Shown: in pieces, positions 6,853 to 27,535 of the stretch
Position numbering within the stretch: the first letter of the stretch is position 1
How the letters are laid out: every line of letters begins with the position of its first letter
NCBI GenBank assembly: GCA_003389385.1
Contig: QQVM01000022.1
Coordinates: forward strand, 132,490 to 196,489
Reading direction: 5' to 3'
Length of the DNA: 64,000 nt
DNA from: Bacteroidota bacterium
Lineage (GTDB): Bacteria > Bacteroidota > Bacteroidia > AKYH767-A > 2013-40CM-41-45
Made by a program: the position numbers and the translations under genes
Notes under the pieces: generated by a model
Databases searched by the model: none
The model's input: only the letters and a program-made list of their open reading frames with translations
What the model was told of the DNA's origin: nothing

Positions 6853-7479
6853 TCATCCTGTTTTTTTAGGCTTCATGTATTTCCAGTTTTTGGATTTGCC
6901 TTCTTCCAGCCATTCCATCATTTGAGTCATTCGTTTTTCACGAGTGGCATCGGTTTTGGCATCGGTAATCCATTCAATATATTCCTTTTTATGACTGGGT
7001 GGAAATTCGTTAAAAACTTTAAGCGCTTTTTTACTTTTTTTAATTTCTTTCAACATATAACCGGGTACTTCATTTTTCTTTATTGCTTCAGCCGGTGATG
7101 TTTTCTTAATAGGAACACCTTCTTTATTCAGTCTCACACCTTCTTTGATCCATTTGATCATAGTTGAATCCGAAGGAAGGTCTTTCAGTGATCGTATCCT
7201 TCCAAACTGTCCCATACCCTTCTCTCCGCTTTTATTTGCGGAATTTTTCACATCCGAGATAAGATCTCCTTTCCATAGTACAAAAACACAATGTTCTTTG
7301 AATGATGCCATGCTGCATACAATTCCATCGTGCACAAAATGCGGCATGCCCCATTTGATCGTTTCCTCAATCTCCGGATCAGCTTTATGAACCAGTTTAC
7401 GGATATGATTCAGAACAGGCTGCGCGAACGGCTTCGCCTTTTCAATGTATGCATCAATTCTTTTGTCAGTCTTGATCAT
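6853..7479 (-). CDS. YdeI/OmdA-type DUF1801 protein
   Basis: 208 residues without a signal peptide. The N-terminal half is a DUF1801 domain (DAYIEKAKPFAQPVLNHIR, then ETIKWGMPHF). The C-terminal half is the OmdA/YdeI extension (VPGYMLKEIKKSKKALKVF and FPPSHKKEYIEWITDAK, then TREKRMTQMMEWLEEGK). That order is typical for YdeI family proteins, whose biochemical function is not established. It is one of five DUF1801-type genes in this window. A 17-bp gap separates it from the upstream SnoaL-like lipoprotein gene, so the two may be co-transcribed. Confidence 0.9.
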   Translation of the reverse strand: MIKTDKRIDAYIEKAKPFAQPVLNHIRKLVHKADPEIEETIKWGMPHFVHDGIVCSMASFKEHCVFVLWKGDLISDVKNSANKSGEKGMGQFGRIRSLKDLPSDSTMIKWIKEGVRLNKEGVPIKKTSPAEAIKKNEVPGYMLKEIKKSKKALKVFNEFPPSHKKEYIEWITDAKTDATREKRMTQMMEWLEEGKSKNWKYMKPKKTG

Positions 7480-8512: not shown

Positions 8513-8965
8513 CTATTTCTTTCCGGAGAATGAACAGGTGTATCCGCCACCGAGACCGCCCGAGTAGGTGGAAAGGAATACGCTGTCGTTCCTGAATGTG
8601 ATGCTGTAATTTCTGTAAGCAGGTGGATTGTTATATCCGTTGTAAGATCCGCTGCTGTCAATACTTATTGTGTCATTGCCAATAATTATCTTATTCTGAT
8701 ACAGAGGATCTTTATTTACGTTCAGCATGAAACTTCCGTAAAAAGTTGTGTCTATCCCGGGCTGACTGAGTGTCCAAAAAGTGCATAACTTAACGCCAGA
8801 ATAACTTCCGGCAAAATTATCACGGTAATCAATTGCAATGACAGGATTATCTGTTTTTATTTCTTCTACATTGTTCTTTGTGCAACCGCTAATAAATATT
8901 AATTGCAGAATCAACGCAAGGCAAAGCAAATCTGAGTTGAGTATTCTATGTAACAAGCGCTTCAT
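8513..8965 (-). CDS. Hypothetical lipoprotein
   Basis: 150 residues. After a basic start a long hydrophobic segment ends in ISGCTKN, a lipobox. The mature part is strand-rich (DYRDNFAGSYSGVKLC, then SGSYNGYNNPPAYRNYSI) and ends in SGGLGGGYTCSFSGKK, recalling lipocalin-like small beta proteins of Bacteroidota. I do not recognise a named family. The gene overlaps the upstream DUF1801 gene by 4 bp (ATGA), indicating translational coupling. Confidence 0.8.
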   Translation of the reverse strand: MKRLLHRILNSDLLCLALILQLIFISGCTKNNVEEIKTDNPVIAIDYRDNFAGSYSGVKLCTFWTLSQPGIDTTFYGSFMLNVNKDPLYQNKIIIGNDTISIDSSGSYNGYNNPPAYRNYSITFRNDSVFLSTYSGGLGGGYTCSFSGKK

Positions 8966-9369
8966 TTTGTAAATTCTTTGTCAAGTTCAGCGGCTTCGAA
9001 AAGCAGATCTTTCACAATGGGAATGTTTATTTCCTCCGGTAAATTAAAATCTTTACAGTACACTTCTTTTCTCTCACCTTTTTCAAGGTAGGAATATACA
9101 TCGCTCAGTAAATAACCTTTCGTAAAACCCAGACGCACAAAGTATGGCTGCACTTTGCCCCAGGGAACTGAACCGGGCCAGATGAAACAAATTCTCTGAT
9201 TCCCATAATAGAATGGCACATTGTAAGAAAGCTTTTCACGGCATCCAGGAATGCATTCCAAGATGAGCTGACGCAAAAGATTGACTGTTTCAAGTTCCTT
9301 TTCATGCAAAGAAGCAAGCAGGTCTTCCACATCCCTGTATTTCACCGGCTGCATTTTTTTTTGTTGCAT
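8962..9369 (-). CDS. DUF1801 domain protein
   Basis: 135 residues, no signal peptide. It shows the DUF1801 core: EDLLASLHEKELETVNLLRQ, ECIPGCREKLSYNVPFYYGN, ICFIWPGSVPWGK, and VRLGFTKGYLLSD. The family is widespread and functionally undefined; one relative is the iron chaperone frataxin-like YdhG. Its stop overlaps the ATG of the following lipoprotein gene by 4 bp (8962-8965). It starts 15 bp after the stop of the upstream T9SS subtilase gene. Confidence 0.88.
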   Translation of the reverse strand: MQQKKMQPVKYRDVEDLLASLHEKELETVNLLRQLILECIPGCREKLSYNVPFYYGNQRICFIWPGSVPWGKVQPYFVRLGFTKGYLLSDVYSYLEKGERKEVYCKDFNLPEEINIPIVKDLLFEAAELDKEFTK

Positions 9370-11152: not shown

Positions 11153-11614
11153 TTATTTTCCCTTCTTCAAATTCTTCTCATAAAGACCTATCCAGTCATC
11201 GACAGACATTTTAGAAGCTAACTCTCCGATTAGCTGAAAAGGAATCTGATCAGGTTTTTTGAAGCGGATACAGCTCTTGCCCATGTCAAGTTTTAACTTG
11301 GAATGTTTGGGGTATTCAGTGACAAACCACTTCATTAATTTCGGGTCCGCATAAACTCCCATGTGGTATACTGCGATGAAATTTTTCTGCGAAGCAATTC
11401 CCATGAAAGGCAAAGGCTGGCTTGGATCGCAATGATAACCGTCAGGATATATTTTGTGCGGAACTACAAATCCCGGCATTCCGTAACCAAGCTCTTCCTT
11501 AAAACCTTTGGGTAGGTTTTTCTTGATCACCTTTCTCAATTCATTCATTGCTTGGATTCTGTCCTCGGGAAGATTTTGAAAGTACTCTTCCACAGTTTTG
11601 GCATCGCTTCTCAT
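11153..11614 (-). CDS. DUF1801 domain protein
   Basis: 153 residues with the DUF1801 signature: KTVEEYFQNLPEDRIQAMNEL, KGFKEELGYGMPGFVVPH, FMGIASQKNFIAVYHMGVY, and CIRFKKPDQIPFQLIGELA. The sequence is close to the frequent soil-Bacteroidota form with the KSCIRFKK motif. No signal peptide, so it should be cytoplasmic. The function is not established. It stands alone with about 140 bp on its 5' side to the dioxygenase gene end. Confidence 0.9.
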   Translation of the reverse strand: MRSDAKTVEEYFQNLPEDRIQAMNELRKVIKKNLPKGFKEELGYGMPGFVVPHKIYPDGYHCDPSQPLPFMGIASQKNFIAVYHMGVYADPKLMKWFVTEYPKHSKLKLDMGKSCIRFKKPDQIPFQLIGELASKMSVDDWIGLYEKNLKKGK

Positions 11615-11725: not shown

Positions 11726-12724
11726 TTACCTTCCGGCCGTCATCATCTTGTACTCCCTGAAGATTCCGTTCATGTTTTTCACTTCGACCTGATAGATGTA
11801 GTTACCTTGTGCTAAAGCAAGAGCATGGAAATTGAGAGGAATATGTTGTTCACCCTTACCAAGATTTTCATATACAAGATCTGTTACATTTCTTGCATTA
11901 AGATCGTAAAGTTCAATTCGAAGCTCAGATGGATATTTCAAATTAATGGGAATTGTCGTTTCACCGTAGTACGGATTCGGAAAGTTCTGTCCCAATGTGA
12001 ACTGTTTGGCATTTTCTTTTTCCAGGTGTCCGATTCCTGTTGTTCCGCTGCCCTGGACAGCCACTTGCAGGAATGCGTCGTAACCACCGCTTGTACCATT
12101 AGGGGTAAGGTTAGAAATCTGGTATTGGTATCCGTCTGAAAAAATGTTGTCATTTCCAGGAGATACGGGATCTGTCCCAGCTGTGTAAATGGAAGGATTA
12201 GCAGTATAGATTGCCTGTTTTTCAGCTACATCAAAAGTAAGCTGTGAAATCGCGGCATAGCTTGAGCTCACATAAACCTGGAAATGAATATGGCATACAC
12301 GGCCCGGATACCATCCTGGAAAAATTGTGATAAATTCTACATCACCATTTGCATCCGTAATTTGATAACCCCTTAAGTAAGTCAAACCTGTTTGCGTACC
12401 GTATCCAGAATAATTTCCATCCTTGTCGCAATGCCAGATATTCACTCTTACATTTTGCATAGGCTGGCAATTGCTCAGGCCGATGATGCGCATTCTCAGA
12501 TTAAGCTGAACTCCCACGCGAGTCTCACGGACATCCTGCCGGAAGTAAAAATTATTTGCAGTAAGGTCAAGCGGAAAAGGACCGGCTGTTTCTGATGGAA
12601 TAAGTACGCATCCGCTTTCCGGAGTGGAATTATTGGATTCGTCCGCAAGTACATTTCCAAAAGGAATCATGCTGGCAAGACCCATCATGCCGGTGGTTTT
12701 CAAAAATTCTCTTCTGTCTTTCAT
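11726..12724 (-). CDS. Exported intradiol dioxygenase-like protein with T9SS sorting domain
   Basis: 332 residues. The start DRREFLKTTGMMGLASM has a twin-arginine motif, suggesting Tat export. The intradiol dioxygenase core (about 35-215) shows NIWHCDKDGNYSGYG, then FPGWYPGRVCHIHFQVYV. The Tyr pair and the H-x-H correspond to the Fe(III) ligands of protocatechuate/catechol dioxygenases. The tail from about 245 (FTLGQNFPNPYYGETTI) is a type IX sorting domain. Intradiol enzymes cleave catechols between the hydroxyls; the substrate of secreted members is unknown. A Tat-type signal combined with a T9SS tail is unusual. Confidence 0.9.
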   Translation of the reverse strand: MKDRREFLKTTGMMGLASMIPFGNVLADESNNSTPESGCVLIPSETAGPFPLDLTANNFYFRQDVRETRVGVQLNLRMRIIGLSNCQPMQNVRVNIWHCDKDGNYSGYGTQTGLTYLRGYQITDANGDVEFITIFPGWYPGRVCHIHFQVYVSSSYAAISQLTFDVAEKQAIYTANPSIYTAGTDPVSPGNDNIFSDGYQYQISNLTPNGTSGGYDAFLQVAVQGSGTTGIGHLEKENAKQFTLGQNFPNPYYGETTIPINLKYPSELRIELYDLNARNVTDLVYENLGKGEQHIPLNFHALALAQGNYIYQVEVKNMNGIFREYKMMTAGR

Positions 12725-25632: not shown

Positions 25633-26367
25633 TCAGAAATAACAGATTTTTTCAATGAAATCTCTTTCCATTGCCGTGAGCCTGACCAGATAAATCCCAG
25701 GCATAGATACATTAAACTCACGAATATGGTTACCTGATGAAACGAAAAACTTTTGTCCTGTGAGTGTATAAACAGCAATAGTTTCTACATTAAGTATTTG
25801 ATCCAAGATTCTACAAATACCATTTGCTGAGCAATGTATGATGGATCTAAAATCGGCCGAATTTGATAAATCGACGGATGTAATACAGTTTTGAATTACT
25901 GAATAACCGGCAGGATCTGTGATTGTTGGAGATTGTGTTCCTCCTGTGGCATAAATCCCGTGACATTGCGCATCGATTGTGTCGCATGGATTTGCAACTG
26001 TTGCGATGTCATATGCAACCCAGAAATAATTGAAGCCTGAAACAAGAGGAAATATTCCACCGTCATACAAAACAGAATTTGAAAAAGAAGTGCTGCTTCC
26101 TGTATAATAAACCTTAACTGTATCGATGTTAAGTGTTGGATTAGTACTGCCTGCTGTTGAGAGGAAAAGCGCATATAATTCTATAGGATTCGGACCAACG
26201 TCGATGCGCACTCGGATAACTGGATTGTCTGAACTGCCCGGAAACATGCCTGAAGCTGATGCTTGTTCAACTGTACTTCCTATATATTGAGGATATGCGG
26301 AATGGCAGCAGAGTAAAAGGATAATAATTAAGGAGTTTCGCATCGCATTAATTACTAATTTCATCAT
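25633..26367 (-). CDS. Secreted protein with BNR-associated N-terminal-type domain and T9SS tail
   Basis: 244 residues. A signal peptide (NSLIIILLLCCHSAYPQ) precedes a domain with the pattern FNYFWVAYDIATVANPCDTIDAQC, typical of the beta-sandwich found at the N-terminus of BNR/sialidase-like Bacteroidota proteins. A short type IX sorting domain closes the protein (NVETIAVYTLTGQKFFVSSG, FNVSMPGIYLVRLTAMERDF). There is no catalytic domain, so it is probably an adhesin or accessory surface protein. Its ATG overlaps the stop of the upstream exported pirin gene by 4 bp (ATGA), so translation is probably coupled. Confidence 0.82.
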   Translation of the reverse strand: MMKLVINAMRNSLIIILLLCCHSAYPQYIGSTVEQASASGMFPGSSDNPVIRVRIDVGPNPIELYALFLSTAGSTNPTLNIDTVKVYYTGSSTSFSNSVLYDGGIFPLVSGFNYFWVAYDIATVANPCDTIDAQCHGIYATGGTQSPTITDPAGYSVIQNCITSVDLSNSADFRSIIHCSANGICRILDQILNVETIAVYTLTGQKFFVSSGNHIREFNVSMPGIYLVRLTAMERDFIEKICYF

Positions 26368-27329
26368 TTAGCATTTACCAAGTCTGGGTTACCCATTTTG
26401 CCTGACTGATAATCCCGGATACAACGAAGAATTTCAGCTTCGGTGTTCATTACAAATGGGCCATATGAATAAACCGGCTCATCCAGCGGCATTCCTCCAA
26501 GTATCAGAATCTCAGACGGATGACGTGAGTATAGGCTGATCAGGCTTTCTCCGCGTTTATAAAGGGCTACTTGTTTTTCAGATACAGACTTTTGTCCTTC
26601 TGTTTCTACAATACCACTAATTACATACATGAATGCATTGTGTGCAGGGTCAGTAGGAATGTCCATCCTGCAATTTTCTTTCATGTGAATATGATAATAG
26701 AATGCCGGCGATAGTAATTCTATGGATGATTTGCTTCCAAATAATTCTCCAAGAATCACCTTTGCAGTAAACAATTTGTTTTCAATATACCCCATGTTAT
26801 CAACTTTATGTACAAAAGTGGAAGGGGCTATCCATTTGTATTTTGAAGGCATGTTCAGCCATATCTGAAACCCATGATACTGTCCGCCATCGTCAAACAG
26901 TTTTTTACCTGTTTCTTCCATGTGTATTGCACCTCGGCCGGAGCTGAACATCATGAAATCACCCTTGCCAATTTGAAAATCATAATTCAAACTGTCTTTA
27001 TGATGACCTGTACCCTCAAGAAAATAGGTAGTGGGAATGATTCCAGCATGGGGATGCGCATCTACCCTGAGTGGAGCACTCCGGGCTTTTACTTCAACAG
27101 GCCCAAATTCATCAAATAGCACATAAGGAGAAACATAATCCAGCTGATCGCCTGCAAATGCTCGCAAAATAGGAAGCGTACCTACATTGGTTCTGTCTGT
27201 GTTCAGGATTTTGTGAATGCTTCTCGTGTTCTTACCTGTTATTATGCCAGATGCCTCACGCACATAAGCAGGAATTACTGCTGCAAATCCGAAGATTGCC
27301 GAGCCTTTTATAAACTGCCTTCTTTTCAT
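26364..27329 (-). CDS. Pirin family protein with twin-arginine-type signal
   Basis: 321 residues. The N-terminus KRRQFIKGSAIFGFAAVIPAY resembles a Tat signal (RRQFIK). The cupin core has the pirin metal set: RVDAHPHAGIIPTTYFLEG (two His), GKGDFMMFSSGRGAIHMEE (His and Glu), and a C-terminal cupin half ending VMNTEAEILRCIRDYQSGKM. Pirins are Fe-binding cupins; several act as quercetinases, others as redox sensors. Most lack export signals, so a periplasmic member is notable. It overlaps the downstream T9SS cargo gene by 4 bp. Confidence 0.9.
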   Translation of the reverse strand: MKRRQFIKGSAIFGFAAVIPAYVREASGIITGKNTRSIHKILNTDRTNVGTLPILRAFAGDQLDYVSPYVLFDEFGPVEVKARSAPLRVDAHPHAGIIPTTYFLEGTGHHKDSLNYDFQIGKGDFMMFSSGRGAIHMEETGKKLFDDGGQYHGFQIWLNMPSKYKWIAPSTFVHKVDNMGYIENKLFTAKVILGELFGSKSSIELLSPAFYYHIHMKENCRMDIPTDPAHNAFMYVISGIVETEGQKSVSEKQVALYKRGESLISLYSRHPSEILILGGMPLDEPVYSYGPFVMNTEAEILRCIRDYQSGKMGNPDLVNAK

Positions 27330-27535
27330 GGATTTAATTTACATAAAAAATCATGGAAACGCCAGTTTGGTCAGATTGTTTTGATGTCAAAGCCTGTTCA
27401 GAACTCACTAAATGCTAAAATTAAGCTCTTTGTGCAAGGCTGGATGAGAGCAGCCAATAAAAGTTTCATACATGGTTTTTTTTATATAGAGATTTCAATA
27501 TATTGTATTTCAGATTGCTATAGTTAAGTGGAGTA

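Follow-up and report, generated by a model that had tools for sequence, protein, structure and literature searches.

A Bacteroidota intradiol-type dioxygenase with a Tat-like leader and a type IX sorting tail, probably exported by Tat and then T9SS

The dioxygenase gene, its family and its surroundings

The window, that is, the whole 64,000-nucleotide stretch of Bacteroidota DNA analysed here, carries on its minus strand a gene (11726-12724, ATG to stop, 332 amino acids plus stop) for an intradiol-dioxygenase-like protein with a Tat-type leader and a T9SS type A tail. The N-terminus, MKDRREFLKTTGMMGLASMIPFGNVLA, forms the leader peptide (residues 1-27, 12644-12724, minus strand, with putative cleavage after A27) and holds a twin-arginine motif, D3-R-R-E-F-L-K9 (12698-12718, minus strand), read from the N-terminus and conserved in the family. 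An intradiol dioxygenase domain (residues 39-228, 12041-12610, minus strand) follows, assigned through PF00775, the sequence match to 5vg2 and fold matches, and within it lie four putative Fe(III) ligands, Y105, Y139, H145 and H147 (spanning 12284-12412, minus strand), proposed from conservation and alignment to the Y/Y/H/H set of 5vg2. The protein closes with a T9SS type A C-terminal sorting domain (residues 245-332, 11729-11992, minus strand; TIGR04183, confidently modelled as all-beta), and its C-terminal tail reads NFPNPYYGETT....

The earlier note had identified the protein as an intradiol dioxygenase, and membership of that family is borne out by PF00775 (Dioxygenase_C, 40.6 bits against a cut-off of 27.3, E 2.4e-10), by fold comparison and by the conserved Y/Y/H/H set. 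An AlphaFold2 model built from the family alignment (mean pLDDT 83.6) showed the leader as disordered, followed by the dioxygenase domain and, modelled with confidence, a C-terminal beta domain, with low pLDDT at residues 1-6 and 8-49. The best solved relative was 5vg2 (VIA Z 22.5 over 176 residues, 30% identity), which also matched in sequence over residues 38-223 (E 7e-24), and the next was SACTE_2871, 4ilt (VIA Z 18.8 over 150 residues, 25% identity); Foldseek was also run. The structures 5vg2 and 6bdj represent Tetur07g02040, a spider-mite enzyme that shares C39, C86 and the Y/Y/H/H set with the window protein but is of animal origin and aligns with neither its leader nor its tail. SACTE_2871 (4ilt, 4ilv), from a host that we take to be a Streptomyces, has the same dioxygenase fold and likewise joins an intradiol domain to a second domain. 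According to the PDB entry titles, its host is a cellulolytic organism and this second domain is carbohydrate-binding, whereas that of the window protein is the T9SS tail.

Homologues were found at 59 loci in a scan of our genome collection, under titles that included Saprospiraceae, Chitinophagales, Taibaiella, Edaphocola, Flavobacteriales, Crocinitomicaceae, Kapaibacterium, Ignavibacteria and Chlorobiota. Except for a few ended by a contig, the matches span approximately residue 3 to residue 330, and 56 homologues, with 45-66% identity, retain both the leader and the tail. These 56 and the window protein form a 57-row alignment, which covers the named set only and includes near-copies (L051/L052, L068/L069, L083/L088 and L072/L086); L041 and one ORF of L096 were left out for want of an ATG near the leader, and L085 and the other L096 ORF as partial. 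Three of the loci also encode a second, divergent intradiol dioxygenase, which is tailed in L078 and L090 and lipobox-like in L081.

Y105 is present in all 57 rows, and Y139, H145 and H147 in all 56 rows that reach them; the same four residues, presumably the Fe(III) ligands as in protocatechuate 3,4-dioxygenase, also occur in 17 lipoprotein-like and seven divergent tailed relatives. In the wider set of 91 rows, cysteine occupies positions 39 and 86 without exception, and positions 99 and 144 together in 61. This invariance suggests that C39 and C86 form a disulfide. Disulfide bonds normally form after export, so that this candidate bond is an awkward fit with export in folded form.

Gene neighbourhood was rejected as a guide to function, since within approximately 10 kb only one ORF, at a distance of some 8 kb, had a relative elsewhere, in a single other locus. 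The window also encodes three DUF1801-domain proteins within 5 kb beside the dioxygenase (6853-7479, 8962-9369 and 11153-11614, all minus strand) and, at 26367-27338 (minus strand), a Pirin-family protein whose RR leader reads MKRRQFIKGS; pirins are usually regarded as intracellular. Elsewhere in the same genome (L123, G000:C13, near 31897), a LigB-type extradiol dioxygenase (PF02900) carries an RK leader, MDRKEFLK, and is perhaps a second exported ring-cleaving enzyme. Among the homologues, 12 of the 52 loci with enough upstream DNA (L043, L046, L048, L049, L055, L063, L064, L077, L078, L081, L083 and L088) have a sensor kinase followed by a LytTR-type regulator directly upstream of the dioxygenase, in the same orientation. 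This pair, confirmed by Pfam in L043 and absent from the window, possibly includes a regulator of the exported dioxygenase in those 12 loci.

Conservation of the leader and the sorting tail

By eye, DRREFLK fits the N-terminal [S/T]RRxFLK-type consensus of Tat motifs. The window leader nevertheless scored below the curated Tat cut-offs of PF10518 (12.3 versus 22.7 bits) and TIGR01409 (14.6 versus 16.7 bits), while the tail narrowly passed the curated cut-off of TIGR04183 (24.3 versus 23 bits) and fell under that of Por_Secre_tail PF18962 (21.4 versus 27 bits). With both features sub-threshold or marginal, this one sequence alone could not decide, and the 57-row alignment was used to assess each of them across the family.

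Within the leader, F7 is invariant (57/57). R fills position 4 in 53 rows and K in four; at position 5, K (41 rows) is commoner than R (12), with other residues in four. All rows have L, I or V at position 8, 53 have K or R at position 9, and 33 of the 57 have A at position 27. The basic pair is RK in 41 rows, RR in eight, KR in four and RN, RS, RL or RA in one each, giving a family consensus of RKxFLK in which strict RR is a minority (8/57). Residues 4-9 had a mean column entropy of 0.88 bits, compared with 0.96 for the catalytic domain, 1.90 for the tail and 3.33 for residues 22-38. Leaders normally vary freely, yet this motif matches the catalytic domain in conservation, which argues that it is read by something.

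The family median of hydropathy, measured as the maximum 14-residue mean within the first 40 residues, was 1.46 (n = 57), against 1.49 for TIGR01409-selected leaders from a survey of 41 genomes (n = 103, p 0.77) and 1.45 for the leaders of the DUF1501 hybrids described below (n = 76). Leaders of Sec-type T9SS cargo, a set defined as T9SS-tailed proteins without the motif rather than by prediction, from which six hybrid leaders and one N-masked row were excluded and in which start codons were picked for the highest hydropathy, a bias toward separation, had a median of 2.31 (n = 40; p 1e-16 and AUC 0.003 versus the family) and carried a Tat-type motif in 0 of 40 cases. The two distributions barely overlapped (Sec-type minimum 1.76, family maximum 1.86), and within the family RK members (n = 41) did not differ from RR and KR members (n = 12, p 0.74). 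TIGR01409 matched few leaders at E<=0.01 (1 of 57 family members and 6 of 76 DUF1501 hybrids), so that we base the Tat call on the conserved motif and the hydropathy; used as the sole test, the curated Tat models were rejected as too strict, most DUF1501 hybrids being missed.

On the family tree (catalytic domain only, 91 rows), the RR, RK and KR leader types underwent at least 14 changes. This figure is a minimum on a single tree made by a quick method, with 29 of 82 inner branches weakly supported, RN, RS, RL and RA rows uncounted and some rows repeating one species (L262 = L042, L263 = L059, L264 = L074, L265 = L068, L266 = L084 and L268 = L075). Such interchange is the pattern expected if the pairs are equivalent, and RK seems, from these sequences, to be equivalent to RR as a leader type. 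The twin-arginine claim of the earlier note thus stands in part: DRREFLK is present, its motif is conserved and the leader hydropathy is Tat-like, but the curated cut-offs are missed and 41 of the 57 members carry RK.

The same note had read the C-terminus as a type IX sorting domain, and here the family agrees, with TIGR04183 matching 51 of the 57 members at E<=0.01 (L071 and L099 end at contig ends), even if PF18962 is not reached by the window protein. AlphaFold2 predicted an all-beta C-terminal domain, with ten-residue mean pLDDT of 89-98 from residue 241. A PorU chain, 6za2, matched this domain over 94 residues (Z 10.4), in a tie with other Ig-like chains, so that the fold match is not specific to T9SS tails. 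The window protein resembles type A T9SS cargo (TIGR04183/PF18962) in its C-terminal sorting domain over the TIGR04183 cut-off and in the presence of SprA in its genome; it differs in its Tat-like leader, described type A cargo entering by Sec according to excerpts from PMC10202324.

Untailed relatives and further Tat-T9SS hybrids

Besides the locus in the window, 29 dioxygenase-relative loci were taken from 395 genomes of the phylum, comprising 13 tailed and 16 untailed proteins; they are part of the matches in 66 genomes, many of the remaining rows being tail-only matches. The 16 untailed proteins (L274, L275 and L277-L290; open frames of 240-267 amino acids) share the dioxygenase domain and leader type (RK in 14, KR and RN in one each), but a lipobox-like cysteine, detected by pattern in 15 and by eye in L290, replaces the T9SS tail. 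A tailed RK member, L272, groups among these lipoprotein-like relatives in the tree. As read from these sequences, the leader is kept while the putative final-address signal switches between a lipid anchor and a T9SS tail.

Rieske proteins need Tat in other phyla. Relatives of a Rieske lipoprotein (PF00355) of the window genome were found in 26 of 198 phylum genomes, and the 27 Rieske-type lipoprotein leaders comprised 12 RK, eight RR, one RN, one RQ and five MNREEFIK. These lipoproteins independently support the mixing of RK and RR as apparent Tat leader types, and the MNREEFIK rows indicate a wider tolerance, evidence that cuts in both directions. The five MNREEFIK rows (L251-L254 and L261) have an R-E pair where their relatives have RR or RK.

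The earlier note had also called for a survey of other Tat-T9SS hybrids, and this yielded 76 among 109 DUF1501 proteins as well as two DUF362 proteins. In the window genome, a start-plus-motif pattern gave 20 matches against 10 for the reversed pattern, which makes single pattern matches weak evidence. A second hybrid in that genome is a DUF1501 protein (G000:C5:137733-139319, in L228) that starts with MKRRDFIRASVPATLL, has the leader MKRRDFIRAS and scored 56.7 bits with PF07394, 32.5 versus 27 with PF18962 and 25.9 versus 23 with TIGR04183. Across 148 phylum genomes, 68 had DUF1501 (131 matches). We examined 110 of these loci, of which 109 gave an ORF and L127 gave none with the custom profile; the 21 others comprise 18 high-scoring matches, mostly of approximately 480-510 amino acids like the untailed kind, and three of the lowest or near-lowest scores.

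Of the 109 DUF1501 proteins, 76 were called tailed by a custom profile built from 30 tails of the window genome (scores of at least 13 bits, and at least 20 in 67 of the 76), and all 76 carried the leader motif (69 RR and seven RK). The 33 untailed proteins, L224 being counted here even though ended by its contig, had 32 RR and one RK, so that RK made up eight of the 109 overall. At E<=0.01, curated models recovered the tailed set almost entirely (TIGR04183 and PF18962 74/76 each, PF07394 76/76). In an alignment of the 76, with a mean column identity of 33%, the first R and the F of the motif never vary, and R fills the second position in at least 90%.

The two DUF362 hybrids are neighbouring genes of one genome (L307 and L357), with scores of 22.4 and 17.6 bits for TIGR01409 (cut-off 16.7), 34.6 and 34.6 for TIGR04183 (cut-off 23) and 103.4 and 109.3 for PF04015. 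They came from a Tat survey of 41 genomes that took 110 Tat-leader ORFs in rank order among the matches listed, with G018:C1:2020890-2020952 omitted and three of the 110 running off their locus (L308, L310 and L317). Hybrids made up five of 113 in the Tat-leader sample, namely the two DUF362 proteins and three tailed DUF1501 proteins (L141, L184 and L222). The pairing of a Tat-like leader with a T9SS tail is thus recurrent in three unrelated families (the dioxygenase, DUF1501 and DUF362). For the dioxygenase, the pairing that had been singled out as notable does hold, both signals being present in one protein and kept in its family, but it is not a one-off, given the DUF1501 and DUF362 hybrids.

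Export route of the dioxygenase and its meaning

The window genome (3.36 Mb, 24 contigs) encodes one TatC (PF00902, 224.9 bits), SprA (TIGR04189, 2654.9 bits) and at least 150 type A sorting tails (150 of 252 candidates scored). Co-occurrence with TatC was discarded as a test of the route because TatC is present in 391 of 395 sampled phylum genomes; the four without it (G019, G317, G344 and G396) lie outside the 66 genomes with a match in the search for dioxygenase relatives.

That T9SS cargo normally crosses the inner membrane by Sec, as assumed in the earlier note, agrees with excerpts from PMC10202324 (2023) and PMC12618676 (2025), which give Sec signal peptides to all T9SS effectors, and from PMC9127263, which does likewise for T9SS substrates; a figure legend in PMC5449463 assigns Tat to T2SS only. 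Excerpts from PMC9251779 describe T9SS as moving folded cargo, which makes prefolded Tat cargo compatible with T9SS. In the open-access full-text literature, with subscription journals mostly outside this scope, we found no Tat-entering T9SS cargo among the matches listed, and open-access full text likewise yielded no account that joins DUF1501 with type IX secretion.

We consider it probable that the window protein is an extracellular intradiol-type dioxygenase exported by Tat first and by T9SS second, as a member of a wider class of such cargo. The dioxygenase would fold in the cytoplasm, probably taking up Fe(III) there, and its R-[R/K]-x-F-[L/I]-K leader would direct it to the Tat translocase. 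T9SS would then recognise the folded Ig-like C-terminal domain of the periplasmic protein, and passage via SprA would bring the enzyme to the outside or the cell surface, where it may open catechol-type rings. The class of Tat-entering T9SS cargo would extend through Bacteroidota and neighbouring phyla and include the DUF1501 and DUF362 proteins. A partial precedent is Tat-then-T2SS export in Pseudomonas aeruginosa, in which T2SS carries exoproteins across the outer membrane. As in the route proposed here, folded protein enters the periplasm by Tat (excerpts from PMC4899797); the outer-membrane step would differ, being T9SS with a CTD signal.

An alternative, which we regard as unlikely, is that the leader is a Tat look-alike and the protein passes unfolded through Sec, gaining its iron in the periplasm or outside, with RK a fossil of an ancestral Tat motif. 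The Sec signals that PMC10202324 and PMC12618676, in the excerpts cited, give to all T9SS effectors would fit such a route, as would leaders under the Tat model cut-offs, the invariant C39/C86 pair and RK in 41 of 57 members; with RR replaced by RK, KR, RN, RS, RL or RA in 49 of the 57, part of the family might indeed use Sec. A fossil motif should decay, yet every row keeps F7 and a basic residue, R or K, at position 4, and leader hydropathy scarcely overlaps that of Sec-type T9SS cargo, RK members being not unlike RR and KR members. The interchange of RK and RR on the tree and the predominance of RR in the DUF1501 hybrids (69/76) also speak against Sec export.

It is more improbable still that Tat exports the protein but the Ig-like C-terminal domain is non-functional for sorting, leaving a periplasmic enzyme. 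The tail recurs in 51 of 57 family members, the window genome has SprA and at least 150 such tails, and the lipobox-like cysteine that takes the place of the tail in 16 untailed relatives indicates that family members usually carry some second signal for localisation; a periplasmic enzyme would instead accord with the marginal score of the window tail, the higher entropy of the tail columns (1.90 versus 0.96 bits in the catalytic domain) and the other kinds of Ig-like domain that tie with PorU. That the RRxFLK string and the tail are jointly meaningless, a chance resemblance that the 20 forward against 10 reversed pattern matches might recall, is scarcely credible given their conservation across several orders and phyla (57 sequences) and their reappearance in two other families.

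Beyond the probable Tat-then-T9SS export of this dioxygenase lies the broader proposal that T9SS is a general outlet for Tat-exported folded proteins, with intradiol dioxygenases, DUF1501, DUF362 and probably further families among its cargo, that the Tat system of the phylum reads R-K like R-R, that standard models miss many such leaders and that surface enzymes with cofactors have gone unnoticed; to this we would give about even weight for and against. The pairing of Tat with T9SS would depart from the Sec-only account of T9SS effectors in the excerpts from PMC10202324 and PMC12618676. It may also help to explain proteins that carry a T9SS sorting domain but no detected signal peptide, the route of which is left open in excerpts from PMC11928666. 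If T9SS does take Tat cargo, enzymes with a cofactor inserted in the cytoplasm could reach the outside of Bacteroidota cells, with implications for the handling of prefolded cargo by SprA, for the Tat motif in this phylum and for extracellular attack on aromatic and other substrates.
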